Of a DNA stretch of 64,000 nt, positions 11,947 to 24,189 are shown in pieces. Both the position numbers and the translations under genes were made by a program. This DNA comes from Flavonifractor sp. An92 (GTDB taxonomy: Bacteria > Bacillota > Clostridia > Oscillospirales > Oscillospiraceae): assembly GCF_002159175.1 (NCBI RefSeq), contig NZ_NFGZ01000002.1, forward strand, positions 124,001 to 188,000, read 5' to 3'. The notes beneath the pieces were generated by a model that was not told the origin of the DNA, did not search any database, and worked only from the letters and a program-made list of their open reading frames with translations. Position 1 is the stretch's first letter. Every line of letters begins with the position of its first letter.

Positions 11947-13095
11947 TCAGTTGGTGGTGATGATGACCCGCATGTTGGCCTGGTCCCAGTCCACGGTGCA
12001 GTTGAGCACCTCAGCCACCACACGGACCGGCACCAGCGTGCGGTTGTTGACCGCGGTGGGAGAGACATCCAGCTCCATGCTGGCCACTTCGCTGTTTGCG
12101 TCGGTCTTATAGCCAATGACGGGCACATTCAGATACATCAGGACGGCTGCACCGTCGCTGGCGCGGTAGGCGAACACCGACTGGTCGGAGGGGTCCCATT
12201 CCACCTCGGCACCCAGGGCCTCGAAGATGGTGCGGAAGGGGACCAGAGTGCGGCCATTGATGGCCATGGGCGGCTGATCGAAGGTGAGGAGCTGGCCGTC
12301 CAGGGTCACGGTGATGACGTCGGGGGTGGAGGTGCTGCCGGTGGTCTGACCGTTGACCGAGACCAGATCCGTGCAGCCGGTAACGCCGCCGCTGCTGAAG
12401 TCATTGGCCACCACGCCGGCGGTATAGCCCACCGGGCCGTTGATGGAGCCCTTGGCGGTGCAGTTGGTGATGGTGCCGCCTTCATAGCACGAGCCGGCGA
12501 TGAGGGCGAAGCCGACGGTGGAGAGATCCTCCATATTCGCCAGAGTCTCAGAGCCGATGGTCACGTGGGCGGTCACCGAGCAATTGCTTACCGAGCCGGA
12601 GTTATAGTCCACCAGACCGCCCCACATGGGGTCGATGCCATTATAGACATAGTTTCCGGCATAGACCAGATTCAAATTCCGGATGGTGCCGGAATTGTAC
12701 TCAAAGAAGGAGAAGCCGCCTCCCTCGTTGGAGGTGCTGTTGATGACCAGATTGGAGATGGTGTGACCGCCGCCGTCAAAGACGCCGCCGGGGGCCACCA
12801 TGGCCTGGGAGGCGCCGAAGATCTGTACGCCGGAGGAGGGCAGGAAGCTGTTGTCCAGAGGCTTGGTGAGGGTGATGTCCTTGGTGACCAGGAAATGGTC
12901 GGCGCTGTGCTCCTCCAGCATCATCTGATAGGCCATGGTCAGGGCAAATTCGCTGTCGATGATCCAGGGATCGCTGGCGGTGCCGGAGCCGGCCAGACCA
13001 GAGGTGGAGGCCAGAGCGGCGGGGAGAGCCGTCAGCAGCAGGCAGGCTGTGACAGCCAGGGCGGCGAGACGCCGCAGGGCAAGGGACCGTTTCAT
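11947..13095 (-). CDS. Secreted protein with GLUG-like repeats and copper-amine-oxidase-N-like domain
   Basis: A 382-residue exported protein. A basic, hydrophobic signal peptide ends near ALAST. The middle (about 80-260) has repeats such as NYSGSVSNCSV and GGTITNCTAKG, resembling GLUG/right-handed helix repeats with regularly placed Cys. The C-terminus (about 265-382) matches the copper amine oxidase N-terminal-like domain (INGRTLVPFRTIFEALGAEV and NNRTLVPVRVVAEVL), usually a cell-surface module. ATG 13095 is chosen because AAAGGAG lies eight bases upstream; the earlier GTG overlaps that site. Last gene of the kinase operon, 47 bases after it, so possibly an envelope output or ligand. Confidence 0.8.
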   Translation of the reverse strand: MKRSLALRRLAALAVTACLLLTALPAALASTSGLAGSGTASDPWIIDSEFALTMAYQMMLEEHSADHFLVTKDITLTKPLDNSFLPSSGVQIFGASQAMVAPGGVFDGGGHTISNLVINSTSNEGGGFSFFEYNSGTIRNLNLVYAGNYVYNGIDPMWGGLVDYNSGSVSNCSVTAHVTIGSETLANMEDLSTVGFALIAGSCYEGGTITNCTAKGSINGPVGYTAGVVANDFSSGGVTGCTDLVSVNGQTTGSTSTPDVITVTLDGQLLTFDQPPMAINGRTLVPFRTIFEALGAEVEWDPSDQSVFAYRASDGAAVLMYLNVPVIGYKTDANSEVASMELDVSPTAVNNRTLVPVRVVAEVLNCTVDWDQANMRVIITTN

Positions 13096-13142
13096 ACAGA
13101 ACACTCCTTTTTCCGTTTATGAGTTCGGGCAGAGGCGGCGGG

Positions 13143-15479
13143 TCATCCCACAAAGTCACCGCCGCTCCATTGACCGTCGTAGACGGTGCCGTCGCTGAAC
13201 CACATCTTGCCGTAGCCGCTCTTGAGCCCGGCGGAGAAGTTGCCGTTATAGGCGCCGTCCACCGCGCTGCGCCACTGGCCGTAGCCTTCGATGAGGCCGT
13301 TGGACCAGCTGGCCGACCAGAGGGTGTCGCCGTAGTCCCAGCGGCTGTCGGTCTGGGTGATGGTGAGGGTGCCGGTGCCGTGGGGCTTGCCGTTCTTCCA
13401 CTCACCGGTATAGGTTCCGGAGACCGAGAACTTACTGGTGACCATCGTGTAGGACTGGCCGCTGACCTGGGTGACCGACGGCGTGGGCGTCGGTGTGGGA
13501 GTGGGCTTCGGCGTGGGTTTTGGTGTAGGTTTGGGCGTGGGCTTGGGAGTCGGTTTTGGGGTCGGCTTCGGTGTGGCAGCGGCTGCCGGCTTGGGGGTAG
13601 CGGTGGGCACGGCGGAAACGACGGGCTGAGCTGCGGAGGGTACGGCAGAGGGAGAGGGCGAGGGGCTCGCAGTCGGTGTGGGTGAAGGGCTGGGCTCGGT
13701 CAGGTCCGGCTCCAACACACGGCTCAGCTGGATCTGGTCCAGACAGGGCTGGAACTCCGCCGGATCATATCCGTCGTCGGTGGAGCTGTACATGACAGTG
13801 GCCCACATCCCGTCGTCGGTAAAGAACACCATGGAGAGACGGAGCTGGAGGTCATCTGCCTGGAAAAAGGCACTGGTGTAGATGGCCTCATAGTCGCCCA
13901 CGCCCACGGTACCGGGCTGGAGTGCGGTCTGGGTGCCGGGGACCATGTCGTAGGGGATGGAGGACAGGACCTGCGTGGCATAGGCCTCCAGATCTTCCGA
14001 GGGGGTCTCGGAGAGATCGGCCAGCTGGACCAGAAGCAGTTCGTCCTCGGAGCTCCGCTGAGCGCCGTCCACCGAGCCGTCTGCTGTATCCGTATTCACC
14101 TCCCAGCCGTCGGGCAGCTGGCGGAATCCGAACTGCGGGATCCCCTCGGGCACAGGCGAAGGGGTGGCCGGGGCAAAGCTGTCGGAGGGCAGAGCCATCT
14201 GGCTGCCGCTGTCGGCGGTGCGGTCCTCGGAATTTTCGCGGTTCAGTAGGCCGTAACTTACGACGACCAGGAGCAAGACGCCGAGGACACCCAGCAGCGC
14301 CGGCACCAGATAGGGAGAGCGCCCGGTTGGGGAACGGTCGCTTTTCTTGTCCCGGTTCCAGGGCCAGAAGCCGGCATGGAGCAGAGAATGCTTTTGGGGC
14401 TCCGGTTCTGGCCGGGGCTCCGGTTCTGGCTGGGGCTCCGGTTCTGGCTGGGGCTCCGGTTCTGGCTGGGGCTCCGGCTCCGGCTGGGGTTCCGGTTCTG
14501 GTTCGGGCTCGGTGGGGATGGCCTGCTGCACGGCGCTCAGGAATTGCCCCATGGTCGGATAGCGGTCGGCGGGCTGGACCTCCAGACCCTTGAGGATGGC
14601 ATCCTCCAGAGCGGGCGGCAGGTCGATCCCGCGGGTGGAGGGGGCGATGAGGTCATCCTCCTCCATGCGCTCCAGAGACTCAGGGGGCAGATAGCCGGTG
14701 ATAGCGGCGTAAAAACAGGCAGCCACAGAATAGACATCGGTATAAGGGCCCTGACGGCCCTTGCGGGTGTACTGCTCCTTGGGGGCATAGCCCGCCTTGA
14801 GGACCACATCCAGGCTGCGGCTCTTGTCGCCCAGGCTGTACCGGGCGGAGCCGAAGTCCAGGAGCCTGACCTGCCCGTCGCCGGTGATATAGATGTTGTC
14901 GGGGGTCACATCCCGGTGGATGATGCCCTCCTTGTGGACGGCCTCCAGAGCCTCCATGACGGGGGTGAGAACGCGCACGGCCTCCCGCCAGTGGATACGG
15001 CCGCCCTGGTTTTTAATGTAAGTCTTGAAACTGATGCCTTCCACGTAGTCCATGACGAAGTAGGCGGTGCCGTTCTCTTCAAAATAGCTGCGCACCCCGA
15101 CGATGTTGGGATTGCCCAGGAATTTGGCCAGCACCCGCGCCTCATCCAGAAAACGCTCCAGGCCGTAGCGGAAATTCTCCTGCCGCTCCCCGGTATAGAC
15201 CGTCACCAGGGGAGAACCGGCGGCCCGGACGGCCATGGTCTCCGGCAAAAATTCCTTTACCGCCACTTTGATGTCCAGCATCTTGTCCAGAGCCAGGTAG
15301 GTGATGCCGAAGCCGCCCTGACCCAGGACCCGGCCGATGATGTATTGGCCGGCCAGAATGCTGCCATGGGGCAGGGCAAAGGGGTATTTTTCCCGGTCCA
15401 TGGCCGGGTCATAGCCGCAGTACGGACAGCAGCCAGCCCCCTCCTCCCGCTCCCGGAAGCAGTTACAGCAGTATGTCAT
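13143..15479 (-). CDS. Membrane Ser/Thr protein kinase with Zn ribbon and C-terminal MORN repeats
   Basis: A 778-residue protein. Order: zinc ribbon (C4/C7 and C18/C21), kinase domain (about 45-315; GQGGFG 53-58, K75, HRD 188-190, DFG 208-210), a PEPEPQ-repeat linker (about 323-362), a single membrane helix (about 391-412), an extracellular domain of unknown type (about 440-600), a TPKP-repeat stalk and three or so MORN repeats at the end ([37 protein letters not shown]). All catalytic motifs are intact. The kinase should be cytoplasmic and the MORN part outside. It is the only kinase of an operon holding two PP2C phosphatases and three FHA proteins. MORN repeats outside the membrane are unusual. 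Confidence 0.92.
13492..13572 (-). repeat. Coding minisatellite for the TPKP stalk
   Basis: About seven imperfect 12-base units encode Thr-Pro-Lys-Pro in the kinase. This is a wall-spanning type linker and is prone to length variation. Confidence 0.8.
14397..14512 (-). repeat. Coding minisatellite for the PEPEPQ linker
   Basis: Tandem units of about 18 bases encode Pro-Glu-Pro-Glu-Pro-Gln between the kinase domain and the membrane helix. Not CRISPR: no unique spacers and the frame is kept. Confidence 0.85.
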
Positions 15480-15530
15480 GTCAATCTCCTCTCATGCCGC
15501 CCGGCAGACCTGCGCGCCGGGCGCTGCCCC

Positions 15531-17012
15531 CTAAAACCGGAGGCGGAATCGGACGGGCCCCATGGTGATCTCGTCGCCGCTGCGCAGGCGGCTGGGGCCG
15601 TATAGGCGCATCCCCTCCAACCGGACCTGGCAGCGGGGGTCCAGCCCTTCCAGAAAGACCAGACCGTCTTTTCGAAAGACCCGCCCGGCCAGCGGAGGGA
15701 GACTGCGGGCTCTCCACACCAGATCACAGCGCCGGTCCCGGCCAATGGTCAGCTCCTGGAACAGGTAGAGCTCCTCACCCTCCTGGACACAGTGCCCTTC
15801 CGCCACCTCCAGATGGAGGCGGATGGCCCCGGAAGGAACCGTGTCGGAAGAGGCACGCTGCTGCCGGCGCAGGACTAGATAGAGAACCGCAGCCGCCAGA
15901 GCGGACACCAGCCCCAGTCCGCCCAGAAGCCATACCGGGTCCAGACAGAGCGTACCGCTGCCGGGCTCCGCCGTGCTGAAGTCTCCCGCCGCATCCGGGA
16001 CAAGGGCGGCGGTCATAGTCGGAGCGGGCGGAGAAACGGTGGGGACGGGAGTGGGTTGAGGCTGCACTGAGGGAACAGCAGTGGGGACCGCGGGCGCTTC
16101 ACCGGCGGCCAGAAGGGGGACCGCGGGGATGGATAGGCGGAGATAGGGCTCATTCTCCCCCGCGCGAAAGAGGCAGAGGGCGGCGTCATCCAAGCGGAGA
16201 TCCTCCGGAAGGGAAACGGAAAAGGACGTCGTCCAGAGAAGGTCCACCGTCTGAGCCACGGTGCGGGCGGCGGAATCGGCGCTGACTCCGCCGGAGCCCA
16301 CCGTCAGATGGGCGCCGGAGCCGAGGGCGGAAAGGGCCTCCAGCGCCTCTGGGGAGACCTGCCGTCCGGTGGCCAGGCCCACCGTATGCACCAGGACCGA
16401 GGGATCCTCCTCCACCTGATACCGGGCCATCTCCAGCGCCTCCCCGTCCTCCACGGCCTCGGTGACACCGTCGGTGATGACCACCAGATTCACCAGCTCC
16501 CCCGGCTCACGGGGGCGGGACACCAGGTAATCCATGGCGGCTACCACGGCGCTGGGCAGGTCGGTGCCCTCCTCCTCATAGGAGAGAGCCTTCAGCGCCT
16601 GCAAAAGTCCGTCCCCGTCACAGTCCTCCGCCTCCAGCCGGAAATCCACACCGAAGGAGGCCAGGGAAAAGCGGGCCTCCTGCCGGGCCAGCCGCCGGGC
16701 GAAGGCGGTCACATTCCAATCCAGCCCGCCCATGGAATTGGAGCGGTCCACCAGCAGGAGATAGGACACCGGGGTATCGGCGTCGGACATCCGGGTCAGC
16801 GGGCCTTCCGCCGCCAGGGTAAGGGCGGTGGGCCCCAGTTGGAGCCGGGGCTCGACGCCGCTGCCGGGGGAGTCGGACAGGTGGACAAAGATGTGGAGCC
16901 GCCCGTCCTGCCAGAATCCGGCGGGGACAGTATCCGCGTCCGATGCGGCGGCGGAGCAGAGAAGGGCCGCCAGCGCGGCGATCAGGCAGAGGGCGCGCCG
17001 CAGTATGGCCAT
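15531..17012 (-). CDS. Exported VWA-domain protein with membrane helix and cytoplasmic FHA-like domain
   Basis: A 493-residue protein. Signal peptide (1-24), VWA domain (about 80-270) with a MIDAS motif D89-x-S91-x-S93, a Thr/Pro-rich stalk, a membrane helix (about 360-382) and a C-terminal FHA-like domain. The FHA keeps the IGRDRRCD strand, but the usual S-x-x-H of the phosphothreonine pocket reads LAGRVF and the Asn-Gly loop is absent, so phosphopeptide binding is doubtful. VWA is predicted outside and FHA inside. The ATG at 17012 has GGAGGG upstream. The start overlaps the preceding PP2C gene by 31 bases. Confidence 0.88.
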   Translation of the reverse strand: MAILRRALCLIAALAALLCSAAASDADTVPAGFWQDGRLHIFVHLSDSPGSGVEPRLQLGPTALTLAAEGPLTRMSDADTPVSYLLLVDRSNSMGGLDWNVTAFARRLARQEARFSLASFGVDFRLEAEDCDGDGLLQALKALSYEEEGTDLPSAVVAAMDYLVSRPREPGELVNLVVITDGVTEAVEDGEALEMARYQVEEDPSVLVHTVGLATGRQVSPEALEALSALGSGAHLTVGSGGVSADSAARTVAQTVDLLWTTSFSVSLPEDLRLDDAALCLFRAGENEPYLRLSIPAVPLLAAGEAPAVPTAVPSVQPQPTPVPTVSPPAPTMTAALVPDAAGDFSTAEPGSGTLCLDPVWLLGGLGLVSALAAAVLYLVLRRQQRASSDTVPSGAIRLHLEVAEGHCVQEGEELYLFQELTIGRDRRCDLVWRARSLPPLAGRVFRKDGLVFLEGLDPRCQVRLEGMRLYGPSRLRSGDEITMGPVRFRLRF

Positions 17013-17770
17013 AGCGGTCCCTCCTTGTGCCCGGTCTCAGTGAGAAAGACCGTCAGCAGCGTCAGATTATCGGCGTCCGCTCCCAGCCGGGGCAGGGCGC
17101 GCAGCAGCAGCAGCTCGGCCCAGGCCCGGGGGCTGTCCGCCTTGAGACAGTCGATGAGGATCTCCTCATCGTAGAGCACGCTCCACAGTCCGTCGGAGCA
17201 CAGGAGAAAGGCGTCCCCGGGGCGGACCTCTCCGCCGCCGGTCTGGGGGATGCAGCGGGTCTTGTCCCCCACTACCCGCAGCAGACTGGAGCGGTCCTCG
17301 TCCACATTCAGCTCATTCCGGCCAATCTCGCCGGCCAGGTACTTTTTGTAAGTCACAGAGTGGTCCCGGGTGGCGTGGCAGATCTGCCCCTGAGAGATGC
17401 GGTAGAGGCGTGAGTCTCCCACATGGACCCACGCGGCCCGGTTCCCCGCGACCGCCAGGGCGAGAGCTGTGCTCCGCCCGGAGCTGCCGCGCTCCCTTGC
17501 CTCCAGCAGCAGGTCGTTTGCCTCCAGAGTCCGCTCCAACAGGAGAGCGGCCAGAGGGCCCTCCGGCCCGGAGTCTCCGGACCAGTCCTCCTCCCAGGCG
17601 GTGAGGAGGGCCTGCACCACCAGAGCGGATGCCCGGGCTCCATCCCGATGCCCGCCCAGCCCGTCGGCCAGGAGAAAGAGACCACGGTCCGCCTCCATAC
17701 GGAAATCAGAGCTGTCCTGGTTTTCCGAGCACCCGCCGGGGTTGGTATAGCGGTATGCCTCCAGCTTCAT
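16982..17770 (-). CDS. PP2C-family protein phosphatase (first copy)
   Basis: A 262-residue cytosolic PP2C. Metal-binding and fold motifs are intact: ENQDS near residue 15, ADGLGGHRDG, VGDSRLY, CSDGLW and DNLT near the end. It should remove phosphate from Ser/Thr and is the natural antagonist of the operon's kinase. The ATG at 17770 is chosen over one 14 codons upstream because the family begins here. It starts 5 bases before the upstream stop region ends and overlaps the VWA gene at its 3' end, indicating tight coupling. Confidence 0.92.
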   Translation of the reverse strand: MKLEAYRYTNPGGCSENQDSSDFRMEADRGLFLLADGLGGHRDGARASALVVQALLTAWEEDWSGDSGPEGPLAALLLERTLEANDLLLEARERGSSGRSTALALAVAGNRAAWVHVGDSRLYRISQGQICHATRDHSVTYKKYLAGEIGRNELNVDEDRSSLLRVVGDKTRCIPQTGGGEVRPGDAFLLCSDGLWSVLYDEEILIDCLKADSPRAWAELLLLRALPRLGADADNLTLLTVFLTETGHKEGPLWPYCGAPSA

Positions 17771-17774
17771 TCCA

Positions 17775-19067
17775 TCACCCCAGCTCCACCCGCAGGGCAT
17801 TCTCCGGGTCACCCAGATAGAACACGTCGCCGGGCCGCAGGCGGCAGGGCACGCCGGGCGTCAGCTTCTGGCCGCCGGAGAGGAAGGTGCCGTAGGTGGA
17901 TTTCAGGTCCGTGAGAAGGAACTCACCCGTTGGCTCAGACCAGCTCACCGAGCAGTGACGGGCGCTGACGCCGGGGGTGCCCTCCGGGAAGAGCACCTGA
18001 CAGGCGGCGCTGTCCCGGCCCACCAGAATTCCCGGCTGTCCCGGCACCGGAGCCGCGGCGCCGCCGTGCTGGGGGGAGAGGGAGCGCAGGAGCGGGGTGG
18101 AGCGGGACACATTGGGCGTGGACGTGGGCTGGGGCGTGGGCGCCGGACTGGGCTCGGGCTTGTGCGGCGATTTCTTCACGCGGACAGCCGCCGGCTTTGC
18201 CCGACGGCGCCGGAGCACCAGCACCGCCGCCAAGGCCAGAAGGACCACCGTAGCCGCGCCGGCCACCACCAGCAGATAGGGGAAACCGTCCCGACCGATC
18301 TGATAGGGGACATTGTTCTTGTCCAGCAGTGGGATGAGCTCCTCCACGTTGAGGGCGTAGTCCACGCTGGCCTCCGAGGTGACTGCGCCGGAGGTGTCAT
18401 AGTTGGTCACCGTTACGCCAAAGGTATTGATCCCCACCACGGTGCCGTCCTCGGTGACCAGGGGACCGCCGGAGTTGCCGCCCTGGATGGATACATCCAA
18501 CTGGAGGACCCGACGGCCGGTGCCCGACTCGGTGAGCAGGCGGCTGATGCTGCCAGTGGTCACCGTGGCGTCCTCAGTCCGGTAGGAGGCCAGCGCGTCC
18601 ACCGCCACATCGGCCACGCTGGGGTAGCCCACGGCGTAGACAGTGGAACCCACCAGCTCCTGGGTGGGCAGCTCCAGACACAGGGGGACCCGCTTGTCGG
18701 TGGGCTGGTCCAGCTTGAGGACGGCCAGGTCCATATCCTTGCTGTAATCCACCAAAAAGGCCTCTTCCGAGTCATTTTCGTCATAAACCACATACAGACG
18801 GCTCTCCCCCTGGCCGCCGCCGGTGGCCAGGAAATGTTCGATGACATGGAGGTTGGTCACCAGATACTGGGGGTCTTTTCCCTCCTCGCCGATGAAAAAG
18901 GCGGTGCCCCGCCAGGAGCCCTGGAATTCGCCGTCCAGCACCACATATTCCCGGAGGTAGACCACGCCGTCCAATACCTCCCGGTCAAAGCCCGCCGCAC
19001 AGGCCGGAGCGGCAGAGGCAAGCAGGAGAAAGACACAGAGCAACAGAGCAGATACGCGTGTTTTCAT
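17775..19067 (-). CDS. Trypsin-like serine protease with membrane helix and cytoplasmic FHA domain
   Basis: A 430-residue protein. A signal peptide (1-24) leads into a chymotrypsin-fold protease (about 30-250) with His in TNLHVIEHF, Asp in DMDLAVLKLD and Ser in GGNSGGPLV, like HtrA without PDZ. A membrane helix (about 263-287) and basic stop-transfer RRRRAK follow, then a Pro-rich linker and a canonical FHA domain (about 345-430; VGRDSAAC, VSARHCSV, LKSTYGTF). The protease is thus outside and FHA inside, where kinase-made phosphothreonine could be read. The intact triad suggests regulated proteolysis at the envelope. Confidence 0.9.
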   Translation of the reverse strand: MKTRVSALLLCVFLLLASAAPACAAGFDREVLDGVVYLREYVVLDGEFQGSWRGTAFFIGEEGKDPQYLVTNLHVIEHFLATGGGQGESRLYVVYDENDSEEAFLVDYSKDMDLAVLKLDQPTDKRVPLCLELPTQELVGSTVYAVGYPSVADVAVDALASYRTEDATVTTGSISRLLTESGTGRRVLQLDVSIQGGNSGGPLVTEDGTVVGINTFGVTVTNYDTSGAVTSEASVDYALNVEELIPLLDKNNVPYQIGRDGFPYLLVVAGAATVVLLALAAVLVLRRRRAKPAAVRVKKSPHKPEPSPAPTPQPTSTPNVSRSTPLLRSLSPQHGGAAAPVPGQPGILVGRDSAACQVLFPEGTPGVSARHCSVSWSEPTGEFLLTDLKSTYGTFLSGGQKLTPGVPCRLRPGDVFYLGDPENALRVELG

Positions 19068-19096
19068 TCAAATCCCTCTTTTCCCTAGGTTCCAGT

Positions 19097-19900
19097 TCAG
19101 TAGCCGCACTTGATGACCAGTGCGGTGTAATTATCCTGATAGACCCGGGCCTGCCCGCGGATGGCCGCCTCCAGCCGTCCGCAGGCCCCTTCCGCCGAGT
19201 CCTGTTCCAGACAGTCCCGCAGTTCCGCCTCATCCAGCACGCCGCTGATGCCGTCGGAGCAGAGGAGAAGGGTGTCTCCATCCTGCAGCGGGAGGGGGTG
19301 CAGCGAGCGGTCCGGTGCGTCCACCTGCTCCATCCCCAGAAAAGCCGACAGCCGCGGGCCGTCCGGGTCGTCCAGGCCCACCGTCGGGTCCAGCCGTCCC
19401 GCCCGGATGGCCTCCAGGCGCAGCTGGGTGAGGTAATTCTGCTCCACATTGAGGCGGAAGAGCCCGCCGTTCCGCAGCAGGTAGAGCCCGCTGTCCCCCA
19501 CGCTGATCCACCAAAGGGCCTCCTGGAAACAGAGACAGGCCGCCAATGTGGTACCGCCCTCCCCCTGAAACTGCCGGAACAGGGTTTGATTGGTCTCTTC
19601 TACCCAGCGCCGGAGCTGGTCCGGCAGGTCTGCCTTCGGTTCCAGCGTGGAGAAGGCGGACAGGAGCCCGGCCACACAGGTCTGGCTCACAAGCCGCCCG
19701 TCCCGCAGGCCGCCCATGCCGTCGGCCACGATGGCCAGCAGGCCATGCCGCCGGATCTCCGTGACGTCCAGGGCGTTGGCAAAGGCAAAGGAATCCTCCT
19801 GGTAGTCCCGGGTCCCCCGGCCCTGGAGGTTGGCCACCTGATAGGAGAGCAGACGTCTGGGCGGCGGCGAGGGCTTCCGCCAGCGGTCAAACAGTCCCAT
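19097..19900 (-). CDS. PP2C-family protein phosphatase (second copy)
   Basis: A 267-residue PP2C distinct from the copy at 16982-17770. Motifs: YQEDSF, VADGMGGLRDG, VGDSGLYLL, CSDGISG and DNYTALV. Gln-Glu-Asp replaces the usual Asn-Gln-Asp at the first motif, but the metal aspartates are kept. The start MGLFDRWRKP at 19900 is chosen; it overlaps the FHA gene end by 14 bases. A longer reading adds 30 residues without family resemblance. Two different phosphatases in one operon may give different substrate sets. Confidence 0.88.
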   Translation of the reverse strand: MGLFDRWRKPSPPPRRLLSYQVANLQGRGTRDYQEDSFAFANALDVTEIRRHGLLAIVADGMGGLRDGRLVSQTCVAGLLSAFSTLEPKADLPDQLRRWVEETNQTLFRQFQGEGGTTLAACLCFQEALWWISVGDSGLYLLRNGGLFRLNVEQNYLTQLRLEAIRAGRLDPTVGLDDPDGPRLSAFLGMEQVDAPDRSLHPLPLQDGDTLLLCSDGISGVLDEAELRDCLEQDSAEGACGRLEAAIRGQARVYQDNYTALVIKCGY

Positions 19901-20594
19901 GGCCGCCCTCCGGCCCCGGGCCTCCATCGGTCCAACGGAACTGCGGTGAGCACAGCGGGAGGAAAAGCAGTTTGGTGGCGCCGAAGTCAATCACGTCGTA
20001 GGGCTCCAGGACGACCGGGGTATAGACCTCCTCGCCGTTGAGGTAAATGACATTGGCGCCGTCTGCCGGGATGAGGGTAAAACGGTTGTTCTTCTCGCCA
20101 TAGCCCAGCCGGGCGTGGTTGGCATGGGAGATGGAAGGGTCGCCCTGGATGCGCACATCCATTTGCTCCCCCCGGCCAATGGTGTTGATCCGGCCCAGCA
20201 GGCGGTAATCCTTGCCACGCTCGGCCCCCTCGATGCAGACCAGCCAGCCCACCACCGGGTCGATGCCCAGCTTACGGTTTAGCATCCCCTGAGTCCGCGT
20301 GTCCGCGTCGGCCCGCTGTTCTTTGCGGGGGGCATAGCCCCGGGGCGGCTGGGTGGGACCGCCCTGGGTCACCGGCACCTCACCTTCCGCCGGGGAAAAG
20401 CCTCCGCCGCGGAGGGGGGCGGTCCGGCCTCCGTCCAGCACGGTGGGACCGCCGGAACCTCTGACGGACGAGCTCTGACCGGGAACGGGGCCCGCGTCAA
20501 AGCGAATGATGGGCTGGGTACTGTTGCAGTAGGGACAGGCGGCGTAGAGATCCGAGTCGTAGATGTGGCCGTGTCCGCATTCTGTGGCAGCCAT
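19887..20594 (-). CDS. Soluble FHA-domain protein with N-terminal Cys motif
   Basis: A 235-residue protein and the first gene of the operon. The N-terminus carries a possible zinc motif, C6-x-H-x-H followed by CPYC near residue 20, echoing the kinase's ribbon. A disordered Gly/Pro-rich linker leads to a C-terminal FHA domain (about 130-225) with TIGRGEQMD and SISHANHARL, matching the phosphothreonine-binding residues, and an NG loop (YLNGEEV). No membrane helix, so it could be a cytosolic adaptor for the kinase. RBS AGGAGG precedes the ATG. Confidence 0.88.
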   Translation of the reverse strand: MAATECGHGHIYDSDLYAACPYCNSTQPIIRFDAGPVPGQSSSVRGSGGPTVLDGGRTAPLRGGGFSPAEGEVPVTQGGPTQPPRGYAPRKEQRADADTRTQGMLNRKLGIDPVVGWLVCIEGAERGKDYRLLGRINTIGRGEQMDVRIQGDPSISHANHARLGYGEKNNRFTLIPADGANVIYLNGEEVYTPVVLEPYDVIDFGATKLLFLPLCSPQFRWTDGGPGPEGGHGTV

Positions 20595-20839: not shown

Positions 20840-20942
20840 ATAGGGAATTGCGGCCATGTTCCTAAAAAGAATGGGAGTTTTGCGCGAAGACCACACGGTA
20901 CGGTCGAAGGACAGGGGCGGGGCAGAATGTGTGCCCATGCCA

Positions 20943-20971
20943 TTGACAGAAGAGGTTTGTCGTGATAAACT
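20943..20971 (+). promoter_or_regulatory. Promoter of the BlaI/M56 operon
   Basis: TTGACA (20943-20948), 17 bases, TAAACT (20966-20971). Confidence 0.8.
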
Positions 20972-21006
20972 CCACTTGAACGGAAGGTTTATCAGAACAA
21001 ACCTCT
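20951..21006. promoter_or_regulatory. Large inverted repeat over the blaI promoter (probable operator)
   Basis: Arms of 20 bases, AGAGGTTTGTCGTGATAAAC (20951-20970) and its near complement at 20987-21006, differ at only two positions and are separated by 16 bases. The left arm spans the spacer and -10 of the promoter. A BlaI-type dimer site here would give autorepression. The core GTTTATCA is unlike the TACA/TGTA core of staphylococcal BlaI. Confidence 0.65.
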
Positions 21007-21032
21007 TTGCGCTTGGAAAGGAGAACGCCCCT

Positions 21033-21401
21033 ATGGAGGACTGCAAGCTCTTTGACGCCGAATACCGCCTGATGGACCTGGTGTGGAAACACCAGCCCAT
21101 CAACTCCACCGCCCTGTGGAAGCTCTGCCAGGCGGAGCTGGGGTGGAAGAAGCCCACTACCTTCAACCTCATCCGCAAGCTGGGGGAGCGGGGCATTCTG
21201 AAAAACGAGAATGCTACCGTTACCGCCCTGGTGGAGCGGGAGCAGGTCCTGCGCCGGGAGAGCGAGGAGGTGGTGGAGCGTTCCTTCGGCGGGTCCCTGC
21301 CCAGCTTCGTGGCCGCCTTTCTGAGCGGCAAGCGGCTCTCCCACCAGGAGGCGGAGGACCTGCGCCGCCTCATCGACGAAAGCGAGGGGCACGATGTATG
21401 A
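21033..21401 (+). CDS. BlaI/MecI/CopY-family transcriptional regulator
   Basis: A 122-residue winged-helix repressor. The helix-turn-helix is WKHQPINSTALWKLCQAELG (residues about 16-35) followed by a wing and a C-terminal dimerisation helix. The frame is open 59 codons upstream, but the ATG at 21033 has GGAAAGGAG before it and starts the family domain. It overlaps the M56 gene by 8 bases. The pair is the classic repressor/membrane-protease arrangement in which the protease inactivates the repressor on signal. Confidence 0.9.
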   Translation: MEDCKLFDAEYRLMDLVWKHQPINSTALWKLCQAELGWKKPTTFNLIRKLGERGILKNENATVTALVEREQVLRRESEEVVERSFGGSLPSFVAAFLSGKRLSHQEAEDLRRLIDESEGHDV

Positions 21402-24189
21402 CCTATTCTTAAAACTGTGCCAGATGAGCCTCACTGCCGCCCTCACCGCTCTGGTGGTGCTGGTGTTGCGGGCGGTCTTGGTGAAGGGGAAGGCCCCGGC
21501 GGTCCTCCGGTTGTTGCTGTGGGCGGTGGTATTTTTCCGGATGGTGTGCCCGGTGAGCTTTTCCAGCGTGTGGAGCCCCGCGTCCCTCCTGGAGGCGGCG
21601 GCTCCGGAGCCGGTGGAGCAGACCGAGCAGGCCACCGAGAGCCGACCCGTAACCGAGACCGCCCAGCCGGTGGAAAACCAGCCGGTCCCGGCCCTCCCCA
21701 CGGGGGAGCTCCTGCCGGAGGACGCGACGGTGGAGTTTTCCACCGTGGAGCCCACCGTGGCCGTCCAGAAGAGCGCCCGCATTCTTGAAGTGCTGTGGCT
21801 GGCGGGCCTGCTGGGGCTGTGGGGCTGGTTTATGGTGCAGCAGCGGAAGCTCCAGAAAGCTATGGCCACCGCCGTGCGGGTGGACCCCGGCGTGTGGGAG
21901 AGCGATCAGCCCGGCCCGCCCTTCGTGCTGGGGCTGATGTCCCCCCGTATCTATCTGCCCGCGGGGCTGGCCGAGCCCGACCGGAGCTATGTGCTGGCCC
22001 ATGAGCGCCTCCATCTGCGCCGTGGGGACTTTTTATGGAAACCCCTCTTCTTCCTGGCGGTCTCTCTCCACTGGTTTAACCCAGTTCTGTGGATCTCCTG
22101 GAAACTCTTCTGCCGGGATCTGGAGGTCTCCTGCGACGAGGGGGTGCTCCGCACCCTGCCGGAGGGGGAGAAAAGCGGCTACGCCCGGGCACTCCTCCAT
22201 CTGGCGGCCCCGGAGACCGCCCGTATCCCCGCCGCCTTCGGGGAGCACGACGTGTCCCGGCGGGTGAAGGGGGCCCTCGCCTACCGGAAGCCCGCCCTGG
22301 CGGCTGCGGTGGTCCTGGCCGTTCTGGCGGTGGGCGTGGGGCTCTGGCTGTGCGCCGACCCGGCCCAGGGAGGGCTCCCGGAACAGCCTCCCACCATTAC
22401 CCTCTCCACCGACCGGAATTCGCTGGAGCTCAGTGCGGCGGAGTGGGACGGGGAGACGCCCCCCGACCCGGCCAAGCTCCTGGAAAACGCTCCCCGCTTG
22501 GTGGAGGACAACGCCTGGAGCCACGGGGCCAGTGTGACCTTTGGCGGGGAGCCATACCCCGACGAGGGAGTCTTTATCGATTATCTTCTCCAGGGGGAGG
22601 ACTGGGTGGCCGGACACAGCGCCTCCATGACTTTCAGCCTCGTCTTGCAGCCCCGGGCCGACTCGGACGGCAGCGGTGAGCCCGAGGAGCGGGGCGTGGT
22701 CTTTACCTACACCTGGAAGGAGGGCTTTACCAGCCGCTCGGCCACTTACGCCTTCCGCCTGGCGGTGCCCTCGGTGCAGCCCGACCAGGAATGGACCGAG
22801 CCGCTGGTCTACGCCGGTGGGAAGCGGCTGGAGGTGTTCGATGAGGATGACGCCGCGGATTTCCTGGACCTCCAGATGCAAACCGAGGTGCTGGGCGTCC
22901 CTATGGACGGCATCATCACCATCAATGACCCCACCGAGCCCTTTGAGCGCACCGAGGCCCGGCTCTACCGCCTGGATAACGGCGGGCTCAGCCTGGGCCA
23001 TGAGGTGGTGGGCGGCAGCAGCGGAGGGGGAGGGGAGCATAACCGCTCCTCCTTCGGATTCCCGGTCAATGCCGCCGAGCGGGGCTGGCCCGCCTCGGAG
23101 CCCCTCATGGTGGGCCTGGAGGTGGTGTACACCTGGGCCGACGGCAGCACTTCCACCTTCCGCTCGATTTTCCGGGCGCTGCCGGAGGGGATCGGCGTGG
23201 TGGACACCCTGCCGGAGTTCTTCCGCCAGAACGGAGAGGCCACCCTCCTGTGGCAGGACGGGGCCCTGGCGCTGGCGGCGGTGGCCCGTCCGGCGGAGGC
23301 CTATGTATGCCGCACGGACAACGGCGGGTTGGACTGGACTACCCTCTACGGCCTTCCCCAGCCGCCCTATCATGATACCACCTGGGACGCCCTCTCCATT
23401 ACCGAACAAGGGGAGCAGCTGGTGATGGAGCGGCGCAACCGGGAGACCGGAGAAATCCAGCAGCTCTACGCCGACCGGACCTATGCCCTCAACTGGGTGG
23501 CCCAAAAGCCCATTGCGGACCTGGGGGCGGTCACGCCGGAGGATGTCCCGGCATACAGCGCCACTGAGTGGATGGACACCTGGGGTCTGGACCCGGTGGT
23601 GCGGCTGTACCCCGACACGATGACATATGGGGAGGATACCACCGGCGTGACGGTCTGCGTGTGCAATTACGGTGTGAGCGGGCGGAATGAGCTGGGGGTG
23701 CTGGTGGACGGGGTGTTCTCCTGGTTCGACCACGGCCTGGGGGAGTACGGCCTGTCCGGGCAGCACGCCTGGGCCCAGCCCCAGTGGGCCGATCTGGACG
23801 GGGACGGCACGGATGAACTCGTCATCACCCACTACGCCGCCCACGGCACCGGGGTCAGCCTCTCCAATCTCCACATCCTGGAACCGACGGGGGACGGACA
23901 TTACGCCGAGACCGCCTCTTTTTCTCTCTACGACGACGGGAGCGCGGCGGTGGTGGACGGCCTGCTGGCGGAGCTGGGCCTGGAGGGGGTATATTGCGGC
24001 GACATATGCAGCTTCCCCGACCCCTTCACGGTGTCCCTGGAGCTGTGTGACAGCGGTTCCCCCTACCTGCTGGACTACTGCGGTGACCTCACCTGTACTC
24101 TGGTCTACGACGGGCACTCCATCACCCTGACCGACCCGCGTTATGAGCCCTATCCCTCCTACGACGATCTTCAGGAATCCCAGGAGTGA
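21394..24189 (+). CDS. BlaR1-like M56 membrane metallopeptidase with long extracellular domain
   Basis: A 931-residue protein. Membrane segments near 10-30, 37-58, 130-148, 210-230 and 305-325 surround a zinc protease motif HERLH (203-207) with downstream CDE. The extracellular part (about 330-931) lacks the penicillin-binding SxxK domain of BlaR1. It instead contains tandem Ig-like segments and, near 795-805, a DLDGDGTDE motif like a calcium-binding FG-GAP/VCBS repeat. It is therefore a sensor of something other than beta-lactam, signalling through the overlapping BlaI gene. Confidence 0.87.
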   Translation: MYDLFLKLCQMSLTAALTALVVLVLRAVLVKGKAPAVLRLLLWAVVFFRMVCPVSFSSVWSPASLLEAAAPEPVEQTEQATESRPVTETAQPVENQPVPALPTGELLPEDATVEFSTVEPTVAVQKSARILEVLWLAGLLGLWGWFMVQQRKLQKAMATAVRVDPGVWESDQPGPPFVLGLMSPRIYLPAGLAEPDRSYVLAHERLHLRRGDFLWKPLFFLAVSLHWFNPVLWISWKLFCRDLEVSCDEGVLRTLPEGEKSGYARALLHLAAPETARIPAAFGEHDVSRRVKGALAYRKPALAAAVVLAVLAVGVGLWLCADPAQGGLPEQPPTITLSTDRNSLELSAAEWDGETPPDPAKLLENAPRLVEDNAWSHGASVTFGGEPYPDEGVFIDYLLQGEDWVAGHSASMTFSLVLQPRADSDGSGEPEERGVVFTYTWKEGFTSRSATYAFRLAVPSVQPDQEWTEPLVYAGGKRLEVFDEDDAADFLDLQMQTEVLGVPMDGIITINDPTEPFERTEARLYRLDNGGLSLGHEVVGGSSGGGGEHNRSSFGFPVNAAERGWPASEPLMVGLEVVYTWADGSTSTFRSIFRALPEGIGVVDTLPEFFRQNGEATLLWQDGALALAAVARPAEAYVCRTDNGGLDWTTLYGLPQPPYHDTTWDALSITEQGEQLVMERRNRETGEIQQLYADRTYALNWVAQKPIADLGAVTPEDVPAYSATEWMDTWGLDPVVRLYPDTMTYGEDTTGVTVCVCNYGVSGRNELGVLVDGVFSWFDHGLGEYGLSGQHAWAQPQWADLDGDGTDELVITHYAAHGTGVSLSNLHILEPTGDGHYAETASFSLYDDGSAAVVDGLLAELGLEGVYCGDICSFPDPFTVSLELCDSGSPYLLDYCGDLTCTLVYDGHSITLTDPRYEPYPSYDDLQESQE

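Follow-up and report, generated by a model that had tools for sequence, protein, structure and literature searches.

Do the seven genes at positions 11947-20594 of the window, the whole 64,000-nucleotide stretch of Flavonifractor sp. An92 DNA that was analysed, make up one signalling system, and what would such a system control? An ORF check of the window places all seven on the minus strand, and their Pfam domains confirm the operon described in the initial annotation. In the order of transcription they encode a zinc-ribbon/FHA adaptor, a PP2C phosphatase (PP2Ca), a trypsin-TM-FHA protein, a second PP2C phosphatase (PP2Cb), a VWA-TM-FHA protein, a zinc-ribbon kinase-TM-MORN protein and a secreted Cu-amine-oxidase-N protein. 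The GC content of the operon (0.63-0.68) is not distinct from its surroundings, and the 64-kb window contains no tRNA genes. A promoter/terminator scan gave counts close to those of shuffles (3 versus 1.1 and 6 versus 4.6), and marked no clear boundary of the unit. Because an adjacent kinase/PP2C pair is encoded separately on contig 23 of the genome, the operon is an additional set.

Gene order and distribution in relatives

Gene order was compared in 80 loci found by adaptor similarity in genome contigs, with genes called by a home-made homology-guided script, and adjacency is conditional on the adaptor. The adaptor, PP2Ca, trypsin and PP2Cb genes form an uninterrupted row in 75 of the 80 loci, across many genera, and the VWA gene is next after this four-gene core in 56 (it is not directly next in 19 of the 75 core loci). 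Four of the five loci without a complete row stop at a contig edge. These totals (previously 69 and 50) include core genes recovered in six loci that were re-examined, where the adaptor (L029, L063, L072, L088) or PP2Cb (L055, L068) is an intact ORF; the recovery also raised the count for the family loci from 16 to 17 of 19. The pairwise counts predate it: PP2Ca follows the adaptor in 76 of 77 cases, the trypsin gene follows PP2Ca in 77 of 79, PP2Cb follows the trypsin gene in 73 of 79 and the VWA gene follows PP2Cb in 54 of 73. The genes of L096 are parted by just one short ORF on the opposite strand, and L122 has neither trypsin nor VWA. No kinase is present in the available stretch of 15 of the 80 loci; in 13 of these the core begins no more than two called genes from the end of the stretch, and the other two are L049 and L056. 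The synteny expected among relatives is thus borne out, and maintenance of the order across many genera argues that the operon is not a product of chance. Judged from sequence, the gene set is a dedicated system that recurs in Clostridia of the gut and rumen. A search of the open-access literature found no published description of this operon, in agreement with the earlier remark that no named system has this set of genes.

Distribution within the genus and family is sparse. The VWA protein is present in one of ten genomes of the genus and in at least 19 of 400 genomes sampled from the family, a lower bound given that few candidates were scored per genome. The adaptor profile matches two of the ten genus genomes, the second (G002) having a divergent form accompanied by two PP2Cs, two kinases and another FHA protein, with the trypsin and VWA partners not recognised. 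The protease profile was rejected as a presence test in the genus, since ordinary trypsins also score and all ten genomes match. In divergent relatives the adaptor lies beside PP2Cs without trypsin or VWA, and therefore does not always serve a protease; no function emerged for the operon (L139) that joins adaptor and PP2C in other families when it was compared with Pfam and PHROGs and one of its proteins with PDB sequences.

The genes flanking the core gave no clue to function, the largest cluster of non-core neighbours comprising three of 20 loci. SLH proteins are found at the edges of two relative operons, an M15_4 carboxypeptidase-like protein in one, and a kinase-NACHT-like protein in three of 103 loci. 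A plasmid origin was rejected, the VWA protein being without relatives in plasmids, as was a phage origin: seven phage records match the protease, none covering more than 80% of it. The seventh gene (11947..13104, minus strand) encodes a secreted protein with a Cu_amine_oxidN1 domain (Pfam, whole-protein E-value 5.5e-27). Among the relative loci that were fetched, just L128 and L131 encode similar proteins, and the gene, which the initial annotation had counted as a member of the system, is a lineage-specific accessory outside the core.

The adaptor and the phosphatases

The adaptor (19887..20594, minus strand) is predicted to be soluble, with an N-terminal zinc ribbon (approximately 20520-20594), a disordered linker and a C-terminal FHA domain (approximately 19950-20258; Pfam, whole-protein E-value 8.5e-10) that is modelled with pLDDT mostly above 90. 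Alignment of 69 adaptors (A5; this and the two alignments below exclude near-identical or cut-off copies) shows that the linker is weakly conserved (mean 0.39), although Thr81 and Thr101 (codon at 20292-20294) are invariant (69/69) and Thr58 is nearly so (66/69). The FHA residues are R141 (68/69), S156 (66/69, with threonine in the other three), H160 (69/69) and N181 (67/69). The nearest solved sequences are GarA and OdhI (best E-value 1.9e-9), and GarA is at the top of the fold comparison (Z 16.3, rmsd 1.8, 99 residues aligned), where other FHA domains tie with it. The domain has the FHA fold with the residues of the phosphothreonine pocket, as in GarA and OdhI. A profile alignment does not place Thr101 on the GarA phosphothreonine, and neither Thr81 nor Thr101 is aligned with the GarA site.

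Both phosphatases are predicted to be soluble. PP2Ca (19097..19990, minus strand; Pfam PP2C_2, 8.1e-9) has the motifs DG[ML]GG and GDS in all 63 relatives examined. Its start is more likely the ATG at 19900 than the TTG at 19990, because the ATG gives the same 14-nt overlap of adaptor and PP2Ca that is found in relative loci L026 and L027. PP2Cb (16982..17812, minus strand; Pfam PP2C_2, 2.8e-13), for which the ATG at 17770 is a more likely start than the GTG at 17812, has DG[ML]GG in 59 of 59 relatives and a GDS-like motif in 56 of 59.

Membrane proteins with FHA domains

Hydropathy with the positive-inside rule, together with the model of the VWA protein, upholds the topology originally proposed, in which the protease and VWA domains are predicted to be outside and the FHA domains, kinase and phosphatases inside. 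Relatives were surveyed in 65 of 81 loci, the other 16 being set aside as duplicates of fetched loci. The trypsin protein (17775..19067, minus strand; Pfam Trypsin_2 9.2e-24 and FHA 1.2e-13, whole-protein) has a signal peptide, an outer trypsin domain (approximately 18429-18908), a TM segment (approximately 18216-18272) and an inner FHA domain (approximately 17811-18026). The catalytic triad (H74, D113, S199) is intact in all 64 rows of alignment A7, as are S368 and H371 of the FHA domain, with R351 in 63. The TM segment and charge rule hold in 60 of 60 relatives, and 54 of the 60 have an N-terminal hydrophobic stretch.

The VWA protein (15531..17012, minus strand; Pfam VWA, 2.1e-7) has a signal peptide, an outer VWA domain (approximately 16326-16757) with an intact MIDAS, a TM helix (approximately 15849-15938) and a degenerate inner FHA domain (approximately 15534-15824). 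Its AlphaFold model (mean pLDDT 85) includes the signal helix and a TM helix at residues 359-388. In relatives, the TM segment and charge rule hold in 40 of 41 and an N-terminal hydrophobic stretch is present in 38 of 41. Among the 47 rows of alignment A6, the MIDAS residues D89 and S91 are invariant, and S93 and D181 are present in 46. The first 50 Foldseek rows for the model include integrins, TRAP and MIC2, with low whole-chain TM-scores (0.19-0.32 by query length). The FHA domain scores just 0.015 in Pfam, below the gathering score; residues 397-493 are confidently modelled and FHA chains are among the Foldseek matches. It is without the serine/histidine pair in this genome, and its arginine is present in 24 of 47 rows of A6 and missing in 23. 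Of the three FHA readers originally proposed, the adaptor and trypsin domains thus retain the canonical residues, and that of the VWA protein is often, by its residues, probably not a competent phosphothreonine site.

Other membrane proteins are similarly tagged. PrsW-FHA is found in four of 103 loci (two confirmed by Pfam) and occupies the trypsin slot in one distant relative; RDD-FHA, DUF4234-FHA, ABC transporter-FHA and Big_2-FHA proteins are also encoded in such operons. Fusions of PrsW with FHA were noted earlier (PMC3482391, Biol Direct 2012), in a passage that does not mention the operon context described here.

A kinase with a variable ectodomain

The kinase (13143..15479, minus strand; Pfam Pkinase 1.6e-30 and MORN 7.1e-12, whole-protein) consists of a zinc ribbon, a Ser/Thr kinase domain (approximately 14673-15341) with HRDVTPDN and DFG motifs, predicted to be inside, a TM segment (approximately 14244-14300) and an ectodomain ending in MORN repeats (approximately 13146-13412), predicted to be outside. 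The charge rule is satisfied in 60 of 64 kinases of relatives; no TM segment is seen in 17 of the 108 kinases that lie close to a core, and some of these 17 are truncated or of another type. Among 90 ectodomains (excluding kinases with no detected TM segment or with fewer than 40 residues beyond it; 25 of 35 families are listed), LRR_4 is found in 32, BspA-type LRR_5 in 12, MORN in nine, DUF5050 in four and PASTA in two, with F5/8C among the others. The MORN module of the initial annotation is present on this kinase, but is one among many ectodomains. The four-gene core is combined with a TM kinase adjoining the adaptor in 46 of 103 loci. Of the parts compared in these 46, the catalytic domain of the kinase is conserved best and its ectodomain least: where PP2Ca identity is 0.6-0.7, their values are 0.87 and 0.41.

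A proposed phosphothreonine relay and its alternatives

The gene set and its order, the predicted topology, the intact catalytic and reader residues, the invariant threonines and the constant kinase domain with its variable ectodomains are best read as a dedicated trans-membrane phosphothreonine relay from receptor kinase via adaptor to surface protease, a reading that we consider somewhat more probable than not. The receptor kinase, with a swappable outer part (MORN here; LRR, BspA-LRR or DUF5050 elsewhere), would sense a cue at the cell surface and phosphorylate the adaptor on threonines of its disordered linker, the best candidates being Thr81 and Thr101, followed by Thr58. Through its canonical FHA domain, the trypsin protein would bind the phosphorylated adaptor, the kinase or both, and its extracellular protease would in this way be gathered or aligned with the receptor and the VWA protein. 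A mark made inside the cell would then control proteolysis at its surface. The adaptor may read the same mark with an FHA domain of its own, possibly switching itself in the manner of GarA and OdhI, and both PP2C phosphatases would reset it. In this scheme we infer the pairing of kinase and substrate, the way in which the protease is recruited, the signal that is sensed and the target that the protease cleaves.

If the system instead served envelope quality control, an HtrA/MarP-type trypsin would act on proteins of the wall or membrane that are damaged, and would be gated by the kinase under envelope stress, with no specific ligand. The Trypsin_2 domain is weakly similar to DegP and MarP, PrsW takes the trypsin slot in one distant relative, and the M15_4 carboxypeptidase-like protein and the SLH proteins bordering two operons would suit such a role; the scores, however, are far under the cut-offs for assignment to these families (Do-family DegP, 61.6 of 416.2 bits; MarP, 56.5 of 250 bits), and diverse ectodomains together with tandem kinases suit ligand recognition better than a single stress cue. 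Quality control is judged unlikely.

A role in conflict or defence, with variable kinases recognising competitors or phages and the protease as effector, is less probable still. It draws on the patchy distribution of the VWA protein, the recognition-like ectodomains, the kinase-NACHT-like protein of three loci and PADLOC matches of the kinase (PD-T4-6 and MADS kinase models), the protease (RT-Protease_XI, 5.5e-17, and LmuA) and one PP2C (PDC-M21C). These matches look like common catalytic domains, the kinase matching 33 models simultaneously, whereas the adaptor, the VWA protein and the secreted protein match no PADLOC family; the protease faces outward, and the phage and plasmid comparisons above yielded neither a record covering 80% of the protease nor a match to the VWA protein. 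Equally improbable is adhesion or surface assembly, in which the VWA protein would be the output, an integrin-like adhesin with affinity set from inside, and the protease a processing enzyme. The VWA protein does have a modelled signal helix and TM helix, a MIDAS intact in 46-47 of 47 rows and the integrin, TRAP and MIC2 matches, but in 19 of 75 loci its gene is not the next one after the core, its FHA domain is often degenerate, and with such low TM-scores the VWA fold says little about function.

Within the relay from receptor kinase to surface protease, a wider interpretation can be offered tentatively: a transferable bacterial equivalent of plant receptor kinases, in which the kinase catalytic domain, the multi-threonine FHA adaptor and the two PP2Cs would form a constant core in the cytoplasm and connect exchangeable recognition inputs (LRR, MORN, DUF5050) to membrane effectors (trypsin, PrsW, VWA, ABC transporter, RDD, Ig-like) that bear FHA as an address label. 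Research on bacterial Ser/Thr kinases has centred on PASTA kinases and mycobacteria; here, a cassette recurring in Clostridia has receptor-like kinases, many of them bearing an LRR ectodomain, that are apparently linked through FHA domains to surface proteases. If correct, the relay would define a path from an external cue to surface proteolysis, give a role to many genes otherwise labelled just FHA, PP2C or kinase by domain searches, and make clear, cheap predictions from two invariant threonines and one competent FHA domain on the protease.

Comparison with known systems

The PASTA kinase/PP2C pairs (PrkC-PrpC, PknB-PstP) likewise combine a TM kinase bearing an outer sensor with a PP2C partner, and in actinobacteria FHA clients are nearby. 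The kinase of the window, in contrast, bears MORN and has no PASTA repeats according to Pfam, its score with the PASTA-kinase model is under the cut-off (168 of 450 bits), and the separate kinase/PP2C pair is encoded elsewhere in the genome. In the TerY-type triad, the genes for VWA, PP2C and kinase are adjacent and the VWA protein is cytoplasmic and not known to have a signal peptide. The resemblance to this triad noted at the outset holds for the three domain types and their adjacency, but is weak because the VWA protein of this operon is exported and membrane-anchored; an FHA adaptor and a protease are also added.

The threonine phosphorylation pathway of type VI secretion (T6SS; PpkA, PppA, Fha1, TagQRS) brings together a Ser/Thr kinase, a PP2C and an FHA protein, as does the operon. 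PpkA is described, in the relevant passage of PMC1262709, as a kinase with a C-terminal VWA domain, whereas here kinase and VWA are separate genes and the VWA protein has an FHA domain of its own; the operon further includes two PP2Cs and a protease at the surface. No adjoining gene family is found in more than three of 20 loci. ArnA-ArnB of Sulfolobus pairs a protein with zinc finger and FHA domain with a VWA protein, and the pair is controlled by kinase activity, as outlined in PMC6509490; its phosphatase is given as PP2A in PMC7472852. The zinc-finger/FHA and VWA proteins are shared with the operon, and ArnAB chains top the Foldseek list of the VWA model with a low whole-chain TM-score (0.30). 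Unlike the VWA protein here, ArnB is not known to be an exported TM protein, and to our knowledge ArnA-ArnB includes no surface protease or receptor-kinase cassette.

GarA and OdhI, the nearest solved homologues of the adaptor by sequence, are also soluble FHA proteins with a threonine segment preceding the FHA domain. The phosphothreonine of GarA is bound by GarA itself, as stated in the part of PMC5448819 that deals with it. The adaptor differs in its zinc ribbon, its longer linker with multiple threonines and its threonine motif, and its partners would be membrane proteins, whereas those of GarA and OdhI are enzymes of central metabolism.

Operon structure and host genome

Seven overlapping or closely spaced genes on the minus strand (11947-20594) encode, in order and by Pfam, a zinc-ribbon/FHA adaptor, a PP2C (PP2Ca), a trypsin-TM-FHA protease, a second PP2C (PP2Cb), a VWA-TM-FHA protein, a zinc-ribbon kinase-TM-MORN protein and a secreted Cu_amine_oxidN1 protein, largely as the initial annotation had stated. 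Read in the sequence, the kinase motifs (HRDVTPDN and DFG), the trypsin H/D/S residues, the PP2C metal motifs and the VWA DxSxS motif are all intact. Divergent from the operon on the plus strand (20856-24189) are a BlaI-like repressor and a BlaR1/M56-like protein, the latter with a long C-terminal region of weak FG-GAP similarity by Pfam. Elsewhere in the host genome (3.49 Mb, 60 contigs), kinase and PP2C genes occur as one adjacent pair on contig 23 and one kinase on contig 12. The strongest FHA domain of the genome (L001:112-3000, contig 58) is fused to a membrane protein that reads as FtsW/RodA-like, a hint that phosphothreonine reading may touch wall synthesis as well.

Conservation and distribution

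The synteny in relatives on which the earlier reading depended is borne out. The adaptor, PP2Ca, protease, PP2Cb and VWA genes follow in order in 17 of 19 family neighbourhoods, in one of which, the distant relative L043, PrsW-FHA occupies the protease slot; of the other two, one is a contig end (L012) and one has the VWA and kinase genes alone (L040). A genome_contigs scan found 145 relatives, most of them titled Oscillospiraceae, Lachnospiraceae, Ruminococcus, Pseudoflavonifractor, Oscillibacter or other Clostridia and one Bacillales, and 80 loci were kept, all found via the adaptor, with gene calls by script and many on MAG contigs. With six loci rechecked, the first four genes are consecutive in 75 of the 80 and all five in 56; the loci without four in a row are four at contig edges (L048, L069, L082, L084) and one with no trypsin or VWA gene (L122). 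Counted by pair before that recheck, adaptor is followed by PP2Ca in 76/77, PP2Ca by trypsin in 77/79, trypsin by PP2Cb in 73/79 and PP2Cb by VWA in 54/73. The kinase lies either upstream of the adaptor or downstream of the VWA gene; two kinases are adjacent in 20 of 103 non-redundant loci, and L094 has five. The tandem kinases at L030:199-5415 both read as LRR-bearing. Deeper relatives keep the gene order and gene content less strictly. Because no gene family in the flanks is common to more than 3 of the 20 loci compared, the operon behaves as a portable module.

The VWA protein as query matches 1 of 10 genus genomes and, with few candidates scored per genome, 19 of the 400 family genomes sampled. 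The adaptor profile (E 1e-25) matches 31 of 391 genomes in a class sample and 17 of 398 in a phylum sample, counts that include some genomes with another operon, and adds one genus genome with a divergent form (G002). That other operon (L139:8472-15073; also L132, L136, L137, L141-L143, L150-L158) contains the same kind of adaptor, usually beside two PP2Cs and another FHA protein, and in L139 additionally a DnaJ protein, large proteins in which Pfam finds no domain, and paired 141-aa proteins; a small kinase lies near some examples. No trypsin-FHA was recognised in operons of this type, and VWA matches are weak and confined to L143 and L155. The G002 locus (L161:5245-14875), which L144 and L159 resemble, encodes an FHA protein, a kinase, the adaptor, two PP2Cs and a 1318-aa kinase, with no trypsin or VWA partner recognised.

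Topology and phosphothreonine readers

Prediction from hydropathy and flanking charge agrees with the topology first proposed, with FHA domains inside (protease 60/60, VWA protein 40/41) and the protease, VWA and kinase ectodomains outside (kinase 60/64). The model of the window VWA protein (mean pLDDT 85) likewise has a signal helix, an ectodomain, a helix at 359-388 and a C-terminal domain at the FHA position. The adaptor and PP2Cs lack a strong hydrophobic segment, except 2/65 and 2/59 PP2Cs. Counting against this prediction, no TM segment is seen in 17 of 108 kinases near a core.

The identity of the FHA phosphothreonine-pocket residues is well established. In alignments of relatives, the pocket is kept in the adaptor (R141 68/69, S156 66/69) and in the protease (R351 63/64, S368 64/64), but the arginine of the VWA-protein FHA is kept in only 24/47, and in the window protein the arginine is present and the serine/histidine pair is gone. 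Thus, of the three FHA readers claimed initially, the adaptor and protease are competent by pocket residues and the third is degenerate. Pocket residues are also given in PMC1262709 and PMC6509490.

Inputs, outputs and proposed mechanism

Conservation of the parts compared across 46 loci is highest in the kinase catalytic domain and lowest in the kinase ectodomain, a ranking that holds in all six PP2Ca-identity bins. Among the 25 of 35 Pfam families listed for 90 kinase ectodomains are LRR_4 (32), BspA-type LRR_5 (12), MORN (9), DUF5050 (4), F5/8 type C (3), PASTA (2) and YARHG (2), with single occurrences of others, including Big_2 and a solute-binding protein; the families overlap. Kinase-like TM proteins that resemble each other lie near two operons (L026:7792-10605, with AAA/NACHT by Pfam, and L033:9370-12189).

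Outputs vary as well. Besides L043, PrsW-FHA is found with no trypsin-FHA recognised in L138 (by Pfam) and L140 (by a purpose-built model), and together with trypsin-FHA in L085; RDD-FHA is present in 5 of 103 loci, and some operons also include DUF4234-FHA, ABC transporter-FHA, Big_2-FHA or kinase-FHA proteins, which suggests that membrane outputs share FHA as a tag. Fusions of PrsW to FHA have already been noted in PMC3482391. S-layer homology proteins border two of the relative operons (L027:4925-6064, L028:14226-15419), and Cu-amine-oxidase-N-like proteins are encoded close to the L128 and L131 cores.

In the proposed mechanism, the kinase would mark threonines on the adaptor, the competent protease FHA would read the marked adaptor or kinase and so let an intracellular mark control the extracellular protease, and the two PP2Cs would reset that mark; tethering of the VWA protein may need no phosphate. 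What is observed is the set of parts and their conservation, and the transfer steps are all inferred.

Comparison with known systems

As the initial annotation had supposed, no description of this gene set or named system was found in searches of an open-access library. The individual components are of familiar types, and sets combining kinase, PP2C and FHA are already known. The adaptor linker is poorly conserved (mean 0.39, low model confidence), and within it T81 and T101 are invariant (69/69) and T58 is kept in 66/69. The commonest threonine contexts are KTMPPR and GKTVG, and those of the window adaptor are GPTQPPR and TRTQGML. Counted by eye, [KR]T[VILM] stands just before the FHA domain in 23 of 35 deeper relatives, many of the rest being from the L139-type operon. 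The nearest solved sequences to the adaptor are GarA and OdhI, which also top the fold search (Z 16.3 and 16.2); MDC1 (15.9) and DgcB (15.6) score on a par with them, so that fold comparison by itself does not point to GarA in particular. Profile alignment does not place T101 on the GarA site.
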